DNA of 64,000 nt from Planctomycetota bacterium (GCA_013349435.1 DUZQ01000002.1:26909-90908), one strand, 5' to 3'. Numbered from the stretch's first letter, positions 48,817 through 55,390 are shown. The notes: generated by a model from the letters alone, not told the origin. Program-made: numbers and translations.

Positions 48817-50343
48817 TCATGGCAGTTGAAGAACCTGAATTTTAAAACTCCATGCATAGTCACACGGAAGTGGATCAGGAAGCATTTCAATAACAAGATT
48901 ATCGCCATCCTGCCGCCATGGCAGCCGCTTCTCACTACCGAGCATCCGAATCACTGAATCCTTTACCGGCCTTACTCCCGGGATAGTATAGGGGGCCTTC
49001 GGCTCGGCCAGGTCGATTGCGTATAAATAATTTCCCTTCATGGTAAACCTTATGGACCCCGCTTTAGAAACATCGACCCCACCTTTGGTGAATGGAGCGG
49101 GTTTAGCACCGAAAAGAGCCGGCTTATTAACCTTCATCCACGCACCGATTTCCTTCAATCCCTCGACCTGCGATGGTGGTAGTGTCCCGTCAGGTTTCGG
49201 AGCAACGCTCAGTAGCGTGATACCGTTATTACTCTTTCGGTCCACAATTTCGTCAATTAATTCGTCGACCGGCCTGCAAACCGCATCGATTGAATAAGCC
49301 CACGAATGGTTACTCCCGAGAGATATATCTGTCTGCCAGACATCTGGTTGAGCCTCATCTAATTCGCCCGCCTCTATATCCAATACCGAGCAGGATAACG
49401 GAAGGTCATCTGACTTACGCGTAACAACGACTTCCTTACCCCGTTTGGCCGCCGTATTAAAGTGATGGGCAAGCACCGCCTTAACATACTTGGGACCAAT
49501 ACATTTCCGATCACTGAACCCGATTTCAAACCACAATTGGTCCGGCCCATACTTGTCAATGACTTCGATAACGCTGTTGTACCATCTCTTCTGGAATTCC
49601 TCCGAGATCGGTTCTCTATGCCACGGTCCCTTGACATCACGTACCGGCCCGTACAAACCCGAATACCTTGGGTCATTCACATCAGTTTTATAAGGACACA
49701 GCATCCTTCCCGGATTAAAAAAGAACCAGTTCGTATAATAATGAAACGATGCGAACGTCTTCATATCATACTTTCTGACTGCCTCGAGCATTTCTCCGAC
49801 GACATCCCGGTGTGGCCCCATGTCCATTGAGTTATATTCGACATACTCGCTGTCCCACATGGCAAAGCCGTCATGGTGTATCGCCACCGGTCCCGCAAAA
49901 TCAACACCAGCTTCTTTGAACAATCGGGCCCACTCGTCAGGGTCCCACTTCTCGGCCTTAAACATCGGGATAAAATCTTTGTATCCGAACTCCGTGCAGG
50001 GCTCTCCGTACTCCTGCTTCACGTAATCATAAGTATTCTTATACCTGGTCCTGTCGATATGCCCCCACGCTTCCGATGTTCCACCTTCCGGCTGGTACAT
50101 ATTACGGCCGCCCCAACATCCAAAAGCCGGCACCGAATAAATCCCCCAGTGGAAATATATTCCGAGAACAGCATCGCAGTACCATTTGGGGGTCTCATGC
50201 CGTCCGAGAGATTCCCATGTCGGCTCATAAAGGCTATCACCGGAGCCAGAGTCAATACCAATCTGACTTTCCTTATTACAGCCAATTATCGTTGCCAGAA
50301 ACAAAATGCTGATTACAACACTTAATATCCTTATTGCTTTCAT
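48817..50343 (-). CDS. GH29 alpha-L-fucosidase-like lipoprotein with Glu in place of the usual nucleophile Asp
   Basis: Lipobox-like IIGC; YEPTWESLGRHETPKWYCDAVLGIYFHWGIYSVPAFG; GPDQLWFEIGF. Confidence 0.88.
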   Translation of the reverse strand: MKAIRILSVVISILFLATIIGCNKESQIGIDSGSGDSLYEPTWESLGRHETPKWYCDAVLGIYFHWGIYSVPAFGCWGGRNMYQPEGGTSEAWGHIDRTRYKNTYDYVKQEYGEPCTEFGYKDFIPMFKAEKWDPDEWARLFKEAGVDFAGPVAIHHDGFAMWDSEYVEYNSMDMGPHRDVVGEMLEAVRKYDMKTFASFHYYTNWFFFNPGRMLCPYKTDVNDPRYSGLYGPVRDVKGPWHREPISEEFQKRWYNSVIEVIDKYGPDQLWFEIGFSDRKCIGPKYVKAVLAHHFNTAAKRGKEVVVTRKSDDLPLSCSVLDIEAGELDEAQPDVWQTDISLGSNHSWAYSIDAVCRPVDELIDEIVDRKSNNGITLLSVAPKPDGTLPPSQVEGLKEIGAWMKVNKPALFGAKPAPFTKGGVDVSKAGSIRFTMKGNYLYAIDLAEPKAPYTIPGVRPVKDSVIRMLGSEKRLPWRQDGDNLVIEMLPDPLPCDYAWSFKIQVLQLP

Positions 50344-50500: not shown

Positions 50501-50602
50501 CTACAGTTTTCTGTCGAGTTTGCGATGGCTTATAGACCCTGAAACGTGTTCGCACCGGATGTCTGAGGAATTGTCAAGGTCGACAGACGCTTGGGTAACC
50601 TT
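50501..50602 (-). pseudogene. Decayed fragment of the yifB/comM 3' end
   Basis: Minus-strand translation KVTQASVDLDNSSDIRCEHVSGSISHRKLDRKL* aligns without gaps to the YifB C-terminus KVARTIADLDNCGDIKPEHIAEAISYRKLDRKL* (19/33 identical). Confidence 0.88.
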
Positions 50603-50623
50603 TTCATTCGATGAATTTAGGAT

Positions 50624-50914
50624 TTATCGCGAATTACCTAATTGTCGAACAGAATCGAGATTTTCCCAATATTGTGCCAAACTTTTTGAGCCTTTTTGAG
50701 TGAGCTGGTAGCTGGTGTTGGGGATTTTGCCCTTGAAGGACTTTTTGACCTTGAGGTAGGCGGCAGATTCGAGTTTTTCCATGTGGCGGGAGAGGTTTCC
50801 TCTTGTTAAGCTAAGAGTAGTCAGCAGGAAGTTGAAATCGGCCTGTTCAAGACCGGAGAGAATCATCATGATTCTCAATCTTGCCGGCTCATGGATAATC
50901 CTGTCAATCTCCAT
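50624..50914 (-). CDS. Winged-helix DNA-binding regulator
   Basis: HEPARLRIMMILSGLEQADFNFLLTTLSLTRGNLSRHMEKLESAAYLKVKKSFKGKIPNTSYQLTQKG. Confidence 0.87.
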   Translation of the reverse strand: MEIDRIIHEPARLRIMMILSGLEQADFNFLLTTLSLTRGNLSRHMEKLESAAYLKVKKSFKGKIPNTSYQLTQKGSKSLAQYWENLDSVRQLGNSR

Positions 50915-51692
50915 CGGCTGCTTCTCCCTGAAAATGCGAGATGCCTTTTAGCTTTTTCAATGCGTACCGGTTGTAGATATGACCGATTACATAAGCCAAA
51001 AAGCCGTATCCAATGTACGGAAGGCAGACACTAAAGATACAGAAATTTTCCGTAGTAAAAAACATTGGTACGCCTGCAACGATTAATATCGCGTGAATAG
51101 CAAAAAGCATCGGATGAAGTAGATAGATAGGTCCAATTCTTGGGCTTTGAAAAAAATACCATCCGCAGAACATATATGGAACAAAGTACAATGCTGAAAC
51201 AGGCTGCAGGTATTTGTATGCAATATAACCCTTTACAGCCAAATTCCAGGTGCCGAAAAAACAAATGAAAAATATAACTGCAGTGACAATCTCTAAACAC
51301 ATCTTTTTCTTTGATGATTTTGGCACTGGTACCGATACGGTTCCTTCTTTACCGTATATCCGTTGGTCTATCATTTGGTCCAGCATCCCTCGGTTTTTAC
51401 CGCCAAACTTTTTTAAAGTGATAATAAGAAAAATCAACATGGCAGCTAATACAGCAACTGAAGCTGCAATCCCAACACAAACTAAGACCATATTTCCTTT
51501 CCGGAACCCTGCTGTTGCTAAAACCAACAGAAATGCCATACCACCCGCGAATAACATGCTGAAAAGCATTATCATTGCCATCAAAACAATAATAGTCAGC
51601 GTTCGGTTTTGGGCGTACTTGCGTGTCCATTTTGGAATCTCTTTGAGTTTTTCGGTATTTTGATCCTGGGATATGTTAAGTTCATTATCCAT
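50904..51692 (-). CDS. Multi-TM membrane protein, tandem paralog 1
   Basis: MDNELNISQDQNTEKLKEIPKWTRKYAQNRTL; hydrophobic segments; overlaps the regulator gene. Confidence 0.8.
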   Translation of the reverse strand: MDNELNISQDQNTEKLKEIPKWTRKYAQNRTLTIIVLMAMIMLFSMLFAGGMAFLLVLATAGFRKGNMVLVCVGIAASVAVLAAMLIFLIITLKKFGGKNRGMLDQMIDQRIYGKEGTVSVPVPKSSKKKMCLEIVTAVIFFICFFGTWNLAVKGYIAYKYLQPVSALYFVPYMFCGWYFFQSPRIGPIYLLHPMLFAIHAILIVAGVPMFFTTENFCIFSVCLPYIGYGFLAYVIGHIYNRYALKKLKGISHFQGEAADGD

Positions 51693-51731
51693 TGTTATTC
51701 TCCTGTAAATGCGCTGCTTCTTTTAGCTTTT
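51649..51731 (-). repeat. About 83-bp direct repeat copy A (start region of paralog 1 plus the tail of the upstream copy)
   Basis: Identical to 52393-52475 (offset 744 bp), ending at a T4 versus T5 indel. Confidence 0.88.
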
Positions 51732-52436
51732 CAATGCGTATCGGCTGTAAAAATGTCCGGGTAAGGCGCATAGAATTCCATATCCTATTATCGGAATGAT
51801 TATATTTAGTGGTGTCCAGGGCCCTTGAAACACAATGGGCACACCTGCAACAATAAGGATGGCGTGGATAACGTAAAGGATTGGCCACAGCAATACTAAA
51901 AAGCCGGCAGGATTAACAGAACGTGGCTGCCAAATTCCTATAGCTATAATAAGTGGGATAACAAATATTGCCGAAACAGGTTGCATATATTTAATTGGTA
52001 GACCACAAAATACAATCAGGAATATTGAAATCATAACACAGATACCAAAAACCAATCCTGCAATCCATCCTGCAAGCCGATGTTTTTTTGTTTTTTCGGG
52101 TAGTGCAAGTTTAACCTGGCCTTCTTTGCGGTATAACCACCTGTTAAGTTTTTCATCATATTTTCCGCCCCATTTAGGAACAGTGCAGAAGATTAGTAAT
52201 GAAATTACGATTATCAGCGACAGGATACAAATCCATAAAAGAAGCGTATTGCCAGACCGGTAAGCCTTACCTCCAAAGTATGATGGGAAACCGACTGCAG
52301 CAAAAATGAACAGATTTGTTAACATGCCTAGCAGGAAAGGCAGGGTTCGATTTTCTGCGTAGCGTTGTGCCCATTTCGAGATTTCTTTGAGGTTTTCGGT
52401 ATTTTGATCCTGGGATATGTTAAGTTCATTATCCAT
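51723..52436 (-). CDS. Multi-TM membrane protein, tandem paralog 2 (C-terminus frameshifted)
   Basis: MDNELNISQDQNTENLKEISKWAQRYAENRTL; ends SRYALKS* while the lost tail KLKEAAHLQENNNG is readable in another frame. Confidence 0.8.
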   Translation of the reverse strand: MDNELNISQDQNTENLKEISKWAQRYAENRTLPFLLGMLTNLFIFAAVGFPSYFGGKAYRSGNTLLLWICILSLIIVISLLIFCTVPKWGGKYDEKLNRWLYRKEGQVKLALPEKTKKHRLAGWIAGLVFGICVMISIFLIVFCGLPIKYMQPVSAIFVIPLIIAIGIWQPRSVNPAGFLVLLWPILYVIHAILIVAGVPIVFQGPWTPLNIIIPIIGYGILCALPGHFYSRYALKS

Positions 52437-52475
52437 TGTTATTCTCCTGTAAATGCGCTGCTTCTTTTAGCTTTT
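52393..52475 (-). repeat. About 83-bp direct repeat copy B
   Basis: Identical to 51649-51731. Confidence 0.88.
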
Positions 52476-53121
52476 TCAATGCGTATCGGCTGTAGAAGTA
52501 TGAAACCAGGCCGGTTATCACGCCTGTTACAGGAATTGCCAAGTACATCTCATCGCCCGGATTGAGTTGGCCGCCTTGTGAAAAGGTTAGTATTGGGACC
52601 TTGAAAATTATGGCAACAGCCCAGGCACCATAAAGGGTGGTCCAAAGATAGCCTATAATGCTGCTTTTCATCCATCGCCAATTCGCGAATATTAGTAATG
52701 GGCAAATAAACGTTGCTGAAAAAGGCATCCTGAGATAGGCAGGAAAAATTCCGCGTTGTTCCATTATTATTCCAAAGATGATAAATGCAATGAGAGGCAG
52801 GGAAAGGTATTTACCCATTTTTTTCAGGCCGCTGCTCTCGGGCACACCGGTTTTTGCATAATAAGAGGCTGCGTTTTTGTCGCATGTAATCAGAAAATAT
52901 ATTAGCCCAACTATATATAGTCCCAGCATGATCAGGGCAGGGATGAAGTTTCGCTTCAAAAAGAAGTGGACGCTTAAAAAAATCGCTCCAAGAAGTATAA
53001 GATAGGCTATAAAAAAGATGAACATGTGTAACGTTCTGTTTTCGGCGTAGCGTTTGGCCCATTTTGGAATATCCCTGAGTTTTTCCGAATCCTGTGGCAA
53101 TTGATTTTGTTTTGTGTTCAT
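52429..53121 (-). CDS. Multi-TM membrane protein, tandem paralog 3
   Basis: SEKLRDIPKWAKRYAENRTLHMF; ends SRYALKKLKEAAHLQENNNG. Confidence 0.8.
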   Translation of the reverse strand: MNTKQNQLPQDSEKLRDIPKWAKRYAENRTLHMFIFFIAYLILLGAIFLSVHFFLKRNFIPALIMLGLYIVGLIYFLITCDKNAASYYAKTGVPESSGLKKMGKYLSLPLIAFIIFGIIMEQRGIFPAYLRMPFSATFICPLLIFANWRWMKSSIIGYLWTTLYGAWAVAIIFKVPILTFSQGGQLNPGDEMYLAIPVTGVITGLVSYFYSRYALKKLKEAAHLQENNNG

Positions 53122-53854
53122 AAATTGGCCCTTTCTGGTTCAAATTCTTATAATTACACCATACGTACAATATATCGCAAACAAGTTTGCAATGCAAACA
53201 GATAATTGAGGAAAACTACAAATTTTTTCAAAAAGTCTGAAAAACAGCCTTTATACGGCCAAAATCGCTGTTTAAGAGGGACTAAAAATGAAATTTTCCA
53301 TGTGACAAACTACTTAAATTCAATCTATAAGGCTACACCGCCTATGACTTTCTGTGGAGTAGAGACTGGTTAACAAATATTTGACAAGCCAAGGCCTGCG
53401 CAGGATTCGTCTGATATCAAGTTCAGTTAATTAGAACCGATTAACTGTTAATATCATTCCAGCCCCGCATCTTAGTGTGGGATAAACTACAGCGGAAATG
53501 CAGAAATCTTATGGTTTAGTCAGGTTATTGCTCTGTTAAAAGTTTATAGATGTCGTTCTGAGTCCTTCGCTTCGTTCAAGGACAGACTCGGCGAAAAACC
53601 CCAATCCTTCAAGAGCCAGAGATTCTTCCCTCTGCTGCGCTCCGTTCAGAATGACTAATGGCACGTCATTCTGAGGCGAAGCCGAAGAATCTCAGGCACA
53701 CATATTGTCATTCCAGGTGTAGGGTGCGATACATCGCACCATTTCCCTGGTGCCTGTCCCGGTTAAATCTCTTTGATTCGGCCGCTTGCGCGGCTCGGCT
53801 TCTGTAAACAATTTGCCTTCTTGCCGATTCACCCACTTGCAGGCTCACCATTTT

Positions 53855-55390
53855 TTATAGTTTTCTGTCGAGCTTGCGGTAGCTGATGGCTTCTGCGATG
53901 TGTTCGGGCTTGATGTCTCCGCAATTATCAAGGTCGGCGATAGTACGGGCGACCTTGCAAATCTTATCATGGGCGCGGGCACTGAGGCCGAACTCGACCA
54001 TCGCCTGCTTAAGGAGCTGCTCACAAGGCTCATCTAACGGGCAGAATTTCTCCACCTGCTTGTGAGTCATTGTTGCATTTGTAATGAGCTTGCCGGCACC
54101 GAAACGCTCAGCCTGTACCTGTCGTGCCTCAACAACCTGCCGCCTTATCGCATCGGAGTCTCTCCTTGAAGACTTTCCCCGCAACGTCCCAAAGCCCACC
54201 GGAGGAACATCAATATGGATATCAATCCTGTCGAGCAGCGGGCCCGACACCCTCGAGATATACCGCTCAATCTGTCTCGGCGTACACTTGCATTTTCGCC
54301 GATTGGTCCCGAAGTAACCGCATGGGCACGGATTCATCGCGGCAATAAGGATGAACCTCGCCGGGAAGACTATCGTCCCCTTGGCGCGGGAGACGGTAAC
54401 AGTCCCATCCTCCAACGGCTGGCGAATCATCTCAAGGATATGCCGCGGAAACTCGGCGAACTCATCGAGAAACAGTATCCCGTGATGAGCCAAACTAAGC
54501 TCGCCCGGCCGCGGTACGGTGCCGCCGCCCACAAGGGCCGGGCCGCTTGCAGTATGGTGGGGCGCACGGACGGGGCGGGTGGCGATAAGGGCGGTATTTT
54601 TTTCGAGCAGCCCGACCGACGAATAAACCCTTGTGGTCTCAAGTGATTCAGCCAGCGTCAACGGCGGCAAAATAGTCGCCATCCGCTGAGCCAACATTGT
54701 CTTGCCCGCTCCGGGCGGCCCTATCATCATTATGTTGTGTGCACCGGCTGCGGCGATAATCAAGGCACGTTTTACGCTCTCCTGCCCCTTCACATCCGAA
54801 AAATCCACATCATATTTGGCGGCGACGTTAAAGGTCTCTTCTATATCAATGGTGGTCGCCTCCAGGGGCAGTTGGCCGGACAAAAACCCCACCCCCTGCG
54901 ACAATGATGCCACCCCGAAGACCTCAACGCCCTGCACGACAGCAGCCTCACGAGCGTTTTCCAGCGGTACAACCATCCCGGAAAAACCGTTCTTCGACGC
55001 AGTCATTGCCATACTCAATACACCGTTGACATGCCTCACCCGACCATCCAGCGCCAGCTCCCCGACAACAATGTATCTTTTGAGGCCGTCGCTTTGCAGA
55101 CCCCCCGAAGCGGCCAACATACCCAAAGCGACAGGCAGGTCAAAGGCGGGACCTGCCTTTTTCACATCGGCAGGCGCCAGATTTATCAGACAGCGCGTGT
55201 CGGGATAATTATGGCCCGTATTGACAATGGCGCTTCGGACCCTTTCGATGCTCTCCTTGACCGCGGTATCAGGCAGACCCACTATCATCGGCTTATCAAA
55301 GCCACCACGGGCAACGTCAACCTCGACCTCGCATACTATCCCTTCAATTCCCTCTAATGTTACGCTGTGCAATCTGGCTAACATGTCCAC
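53855..55390 (-). CDS. YifB/ComM-family Mg-chelatase-like AAA ATPase
   Basis: MIGPPGAGKTMLAQRMATILPPL, HHTASGPALVGGG, RPGELSLAHHGILFLDEFAEF, AAMNPCPCGYFG. Confidence 0.95.
   Translation of the reverse strand: MDMLARLHSVTLEGIEGIVCEVEVDVARGGFDKPMIVGLPDTAVKESIERVRSAIVNTGHNYPDTRCLINLAPADVKKAGPAFDLPVALGMLAASGGLQSDGLKRYIVVGELALDGRVRHVNGVLSMAMTASKNGFSGMVVPLENAREAAVVQGVEVFGVASLSQGVGFLSGQLPLEATTIDIEETFNVAAKYDVDFSDVKGQESVKRALIIAAAGAHNIMMIGPPGAGKTMLAQRMATILPPLTLAESLETTRVYSSVGLLEKNTALIATRPVRAPHHTASGPALVGGGTVPRPGELSLAHHGILFLDEFAEFPRHILEMIRQPLEDGTVTVSRAKGTIVFPARFILIAAMNPCPCGYFGTNRRKCKCTPRQIERYISRVSGPLLDRIDIHIDVPPVGFGTLRGKSSRRDSDAIRRQVVEARQVQAERFGAGKLITNATMTHKQVEKFCPLDEPCEQLLKQAMVEFGLSARAHDKICKVARTIADLDNCGDIKPEHIAEAISYRKLDRKL

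Follow-up and report, generated by a model that had tools for sequence, protein, structure and literature searches.

A displaced second yifB 3' end behind a regulator and membrane protein module suggests import of foreign DNA anchored in a conserved gene

The window analysed here is a 64,000-nucleotide stretch of DNA from a Planctomycetota bacterium (GCA_013349435.1, DUZQ01000002.1:26909-90908), in which a decayed second copy of the 3' end of yifB (comM) lies downstream of the intact gene, with one regulator gene and three membrane protein genes between the two. Comparison with relatives suggests that foreign DNA recombined into the end of yifB and pushed the old end downstream. We put the probability that the module in the window arrived in this manner, by homology-anchored import of a donor gene end together with the genes downstream of it, at roughly 70%. 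The architecture, its statistical significance, its recurrence with unrelated cargo and the missing integrase were observed directly.

Results

The intact yifB gene (53855-55390, minus strand) encodes a full-length YifB of 511 residues, an Mg-chelatase-like AAA ATPase (TIGR00368, E = 2e-183) with the Pfam domains Mg_chelatase, ChlI and Mg_chelatase_C. Farther downstream on the same strand, positions 50502-50582 match the 3' end of this gene (53856-53936) over 81 bp with 75% identity, and the stop codon is kept in the displaced tail. The remnant (50501-50607, minus strand), in which possible weak similarity extends as far as about 50607, comprises the final 27-35 codons of yifB, and its minus-strand frame terminates in ...VDLDNSSDIRCEHVSGSISHRKLDRKL followed by the stop. 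As the first-pass annotation had reported, the translated remnant aligns gaplessly with the last 33 residues of YifB (residues 479-511), 19/33 of them being identical (57.6%), with the stop conserved. Searched against the complete source genome, this match had an E value of 4.2e-9. The same annotation had proposed a shuffled-sequence test, and the similarity persisted when we ran it: the Smith-Waterman score was 62, whereas the best of 500 dinucleotide-shuffled sequences reached 27. Chance similarity of the two tails was ruled out by the E value, the shuffles and the control regions described below.

The open reading frames between the two tails bore out the earlier statement that exactly a winged-helix gene and three membrane protein paralogs lie there; apart from these four genes, all on the same strand as yifB, the interval contains only ∼730 bp of non-coding DNA (53122-53854) that separates the yifB stop codon from the module. 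The first module gene, M3 (52429-53121, 230 aa), is followed by M2 (51723-52436, 237 aa) and M1 (50904-51692, 262 aa, ∼5 hydrophobic segments), the three being defined by open reading frame, paralogy and hydropathy. The last gene (50624-50914) encodes a 96-residue winged-helix regulator of the HTH_34 family (PF13601, E = 9e-24), and its stop codon lies ∼17 bp from the edge of the remnant. The non-coding segment carries dispersed repeats detected by blastn within the window; short repeats of the gtcattctgaggcgaagccgaagaatct type are found at 53540-53720, upstream of the module, and more occur near 28.8-29.2 kb and 32.4 kb. Past the remnant is an alpha-L-fucosidase gene (GH29, 48817-50343, minus strand; PF01120, E = 1e-83), presumed to be the resident right flank, and the next gene is mfd, named by sequence and from relatives. 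The source genome (G000) has at least 10 alpha-L-fucosidase paralogs, with loci on contigs C3, C53 and C77; the C3 copy is 75% identical, and C53 carries a tandem array.

The HTH/membrane module is an independent, sporadic unit. An HTH_34 regulator paired with a single membrane protein was found at unrelated places, away from yifB, in five other genomes of the order to which the window belongs (G003, G056, G087, G097 and G077; L131-L134 and L371), compared with three membrane paralogs in the window. M1-M3 had no Pfam match and were assigned to no family or fold, and no Pfam family was found for the membrane protein of the two-gene pairs. An AlphaFold model of M1, built with all three paralogs as input, was of low quality (pLDDT 48.8), and in PADLOC the regulator had no more than weak Csa3-like HTH matches. 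The module in the window probably serves a self-regulated membrane function. Two 158-bp blocks with 90% identity (51594-51749 and 52338-52494) cover the M1/M2 and M2/M3 junctions, each containing the end of one gene and the start of the next, as if membrane genes had been added via recombination at shared gene ends.

To survey other loci, the last 120 bp of yifB were compared with up to 8 kb of downstream DNA, with all loci oriented, in 98 related genomes and more distant phyla. A displaced same-strand yifB tail was present downstream in 8 of 163 loci (∼5%), with Smith-Waterman scores of 47-230, and none of the 453 control regions (reverse strand, upstream) scored above 35. The positives were the window, G077 (L033), G013 (L053), G053 (L076), G064 (L105), L146, L149 and L190, the last three from outside the order to which the window belongs. 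At all eight loci the displaced tail was invariably on the same strand as the intact yifB and downstream of it, and the displaced piece ranged from ∼36 to 390 bp, with left edges from -36 to about -390. The L146 remnant has an internal deletion of ∼210 bp, indicating that displaced tails do decay.

The cargo differed at every one of these loci. In addition to the HTH and three membrane genes of the window, it consisted of a gene for a 1202-aa CarboxypepD_reg protein, an M16 peptidase pair, a single DUF3795 gene (144 aa), an MNT/HEPN pair, a sulfurtransferase/LytTR block, two genes without known function or a DUF1353 gene (G077, L033). Comparison of the cargo proteins with all other yifB downstream regions revealed no repeated neighbor; a DUF3795 relative in G086 does not adjoin yifB, and no donor was found for that case. 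In L053, L076, L105, L190, the window and the mfd locus L334, no more than ∼20 bp separate the end of the last cargo gene from the displaced tail, or the two overlap; this spacing is closer than expected of random joints and counts against the import reading.

The first-pass annotation had read the module as foreign DNA inserted or recombined at the yifB 3' end, and this is the best reading; the architecture recurs with unrelated cargo at the seven further yifB loci and at two loci of mfd. A remnant standing independently of the module, which the annotation had named as speaking against its proposal, was found in no relative compared.

We then considered how the two tails differ. In six yifB cases, the tail differences numbered 12, 6 and 46 at codon positions 1, 2 and 3, respectively (p = 5e-10). 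This third-position bias indicates that both tails evolved as working genes before they were joined; differences in an in-place copy would be expected to spread over the codon positions. At nine differing sites in G064, the displaced tail agreed with the congeners G049 and G057 and with G061 at 5-7 sites, compared with 1-2 for the current tail. The DNA past the displaced tail in G064 is syntenic with the yifB downstream region of these three genomes, and the longest identical stretch between its two tails is ∼13 bp. The displaced tail thus resembles that of the congeners and the current one is odd, indicating that a foreign end took the place of the resident one, which was moved downstream. 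Chimera mapping in 90-bp segments along yifB showed a drop in the last segment for G013; the other relatives were too distant to place the crossover.

Control genes from the same genomes were examined in parallel. Displaced tails were found at 2 of 40 mfd loci and at none of 39 lepA loci, and yifB did not differ significantly from LepA and Mfd combined (p = 0.5). Among other open reading frames, 14 of ∼1750 were positive, mostly because of tandem paralogs, repeats and shared C-terminal domains, and the frequency at yifB was higher (p = 3e-4). The mfd counts indicate that tail displacement is not specific to yifB. The process seems to strike conserved genes generally, as would be expected of one that depends on homology to a donor.

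The clearest case is mfd of G080 (L351/L380). Its congener G068 represents the empty site, in which mfd is followed by a small membrane gene and a redoxin gene. In G080 the body of mfd is resident and the last ∼57 nt are foreign; a HigBA toxin-antitoxin pair comes next, followed by the start of a redoxin gene (69 residues), only 44% identical to the redoxin of G080 itself, and then by ∼115 nt of resident mfd tail that lead into the resident neighbors in the G068 order. Redoxin genes come after mfd in the family of G080, so the import is most simply a donor mfd end with the donor's neighbors, and the joint falls within the redoxin gene. The segment from -115 to -57 has G080-specific bases in common between its two copies, which favors homology-facilitated illegitimate recombination over a circular single crossover. 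At the second mfd locus (G074, L334/L381), the displaced tail lies behind a redoxin/TolB-like block that is also found next to mfd in G087.

By sequence comparison, the polarity could be shown for G064 yifB and G080 mfd, where the resident tail is the displaced one. Of the two origins that the first-pass annotation had allowed for the remnant, resident or carried in by the incoming DNA, the resident one therefore holds at these two loci and extends to the window by analogy: we infer that the remnant at 50501-50607 would be the resident tail and the HTH/membrane module the original cargo, and the last ∼80 bp of the intact yifB, its current tail, are possibly foreign. The window tails differ at 20 sites (7, 5 and 8 at codon positions 1, 2 and 3), and this lack of third-position bias is compatible with decay and also with in situ duplication. 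To judge by its sequence, the window remnant is decayed, past the reach of the codon-position test. At the 20 sites, relatives match the intact tail on average 8.4 times and the remnant 4.7 times, as decay alone predicts. The sole congener of the window genome compared, G001, lacks yifB, and its mfd contig stops short of the region compared.

The duplication that these unbiased differences would also fit would have copied the yifB tail within the genome as the module inserted, either by tandem duplication or by insertion with a long target duplication, the downstream copy then decaying without any foreign tail being involved. Insertion with long target duplication is known for restriction-modification genes, where direct repeats of tens to hundreds of bp, both copies of resident sequence, surround the inserted genes. 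A 300-bp yifB tail repeat with 95% identity and a frameshift surrounds the DUF1353 gene in G077 (L033, 6056-7480); its differences are likewise unbiased (4, 3 and 6 by codon position), and it may be a true in-place duplication. Against this explanation, the six other yifB cases and G080 mfd have functionally diverged or foreign tails, and no second copy of the cargo was found past the remnants examined. In G064 and the third-position-biased cases, the two repeats are not both derived from the resident; unlike in long target duplications, one copy is a foreign ortholog wherever this could be tested. We consider an in situ origin of the window repeat unlikely, though worth keeping in view.

If instead an integrative element had entered at the yifB 3' end, the repeats would be attL and attR of a non-autonomous island whose recombinase was lost or acted in trans. 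The direct-repeat geometry, which restores the 3' end, is consistent with such an element, as is the position of the repeat's right edge, which coincides with the yifB stop codon or lies close to it, and Tn6022 and Tsy are known to target comM (PMC10293859). IMG/VR contig L237 opens in the yifB tail (positions 1-150) directly before phage genes, a possible prophage at the yifB 3' end; an integrase was not found in this 21-kb record. These points are set against the lack, at the loci sampled, of any integrase in the repeat-bounded islands or in the vicinity of yifB. When 1.29 Mb of DNA downstream of yifB was searched with a recombinase profile based on the integrases of 28 relatives, there were 2 matches, neither inside a repeat-bounded island. 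The left edges share no common core, identical stretches in G064 do not exceed ∼13 bp, the same pattern occurs at mfd, and Tn6022 and Tsy target the Walker B codons instead of the 3' end. The absence of an integrase and the variable length of the displaced piece argue against one attachment site, and we rejected yifB as a dedicated attachment site as the main reading on these grounds and on the pattern at mfd; an element of this kind is improbable for the window. Pieces of yifB in viral contigs mostly cover the C-terminal third or half of the gene, more than the tail, and those in IMG/VR contigs L218-L236 start at about residue 216, 278 or 345, suggesting from their sequences that elements may have inserted at several conserved comM motifs beyond Walker B.

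That the remnant is what is left of a formerly complete second yifB, or stems from a rearrangement unrelated to the module, which would then lie between the tails by accident, would suit its 25% divergence and the module's own history of paralog gain (the 158-bp repeats with 90% identity), but is highly improbable given that the 3' end alone is present, that the module fills the interval exactly up to the ∼17 bp before the remnant and that remnants in other genomes always lie on the same strand downstream of the intact gene.

Discussion

In the homology-anchored import that we favor, the incoming DNA would carry a donor yifB 3' end followed by downstream cargo. One of its ends would pair with the resident yifB near the 3' end and cross over there, so that yifB would remain functional, now with a tail from the donor. 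At its far end the cargo would be joined inside the resident yifB tail, either by illegitimate recombination or by closure of a single-crossover circle, and the resident tail, shunted behind the cargo, would lose its function and decay. Foreign DNA beside a donor-homologous stretch was found at G064 yifB and G080 mfd, and the window shows the architecture alone. The second joint has no specific site and its position varies, as seen in the range of left edges and in the G080 joint inside redoxin.

YifB/ComM is a transformation branch-migration helicase. Were the ends of yifB/comM and mfd preferred ports for foreign gene sets in free-living bacteria of several phyla, the yifB locus could be favored through the activity of its own product or because exchange of the tail is selected for; we regard a port of this kind as improbable. 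To our knowledge, most bacterial gene gain without mobile elements shows no visible mechanism. A recognizable gene end that has been displaced dates and orients an import, marks the foreign DNA and lends itself to searches of any genome. The scar was present in ∼5% of the yifB loci and in 2 of the 40 mfd loci that we examined, and its detection could provide a simple assay, applicable to uncultured lineages, of homology-anchored import, toxin-antitoxin pairs being among the genes imported.

Several described systems resemble the yifB and mfd loci in part. In the displacement of Rhs C-terminal tips, the old 3' end is shunted downstream, silent and of variable length, and the process has been attributed to homologous recombination, the proposal being that a circular molecule enters by one crossover (Jackson et al. 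2009, PMC2935791). As at yifB and mfd, a constant 5' part receives an incoming 3' end and the old end is displaced. However, Rhs tips are non-homologous toxin domains, whereas yifB and mfd are housekeeping genes whose new end is orthologous to the old one, and the gain at these genes, unlike that at Rhs, is the cargo behind the new end. A circular single crossover, as proposed for Rhs, would yield nearly the same product as homology-facilitated illegitimate recombination (PMC2935791).

The latter process, in which one end is homologous and the other illegitimate and foreign DNA is gained, has been described with products that combine insertion and deletion (PMC3240628, PMC2884548); at yifB and mfd the tail is duplicated instead. 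It has also been proposed for the type VI secretion system (T6SS) effector-immunity arrays of Vibrio cholerae (Kirchberger et al. 2017, PMC5361080), where a module likewise enters with a conserved upstream anchor and the displaced 3' end or immunity gene remains, but these arrays are limited to toxin/immunity loci and have no housekeeping anchor gene (PMC5361080). Tn6022 and Tsy share the target gene comM/yifB with the window. These elements insert at the Walker B region by means of their own transposition proteins and split the gene (PMC10293859), whereas the window has no Walker B insertion, tns or yrec genes or split gene. A Tn7-like/Tsy element was rejected for the window, where the interval holds the HTH and three membrane genes alone and the remnant consists of last codons. 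The pattern described here is explained by a known class of event; what is new is its observation at yifB and mfd in the group studied.
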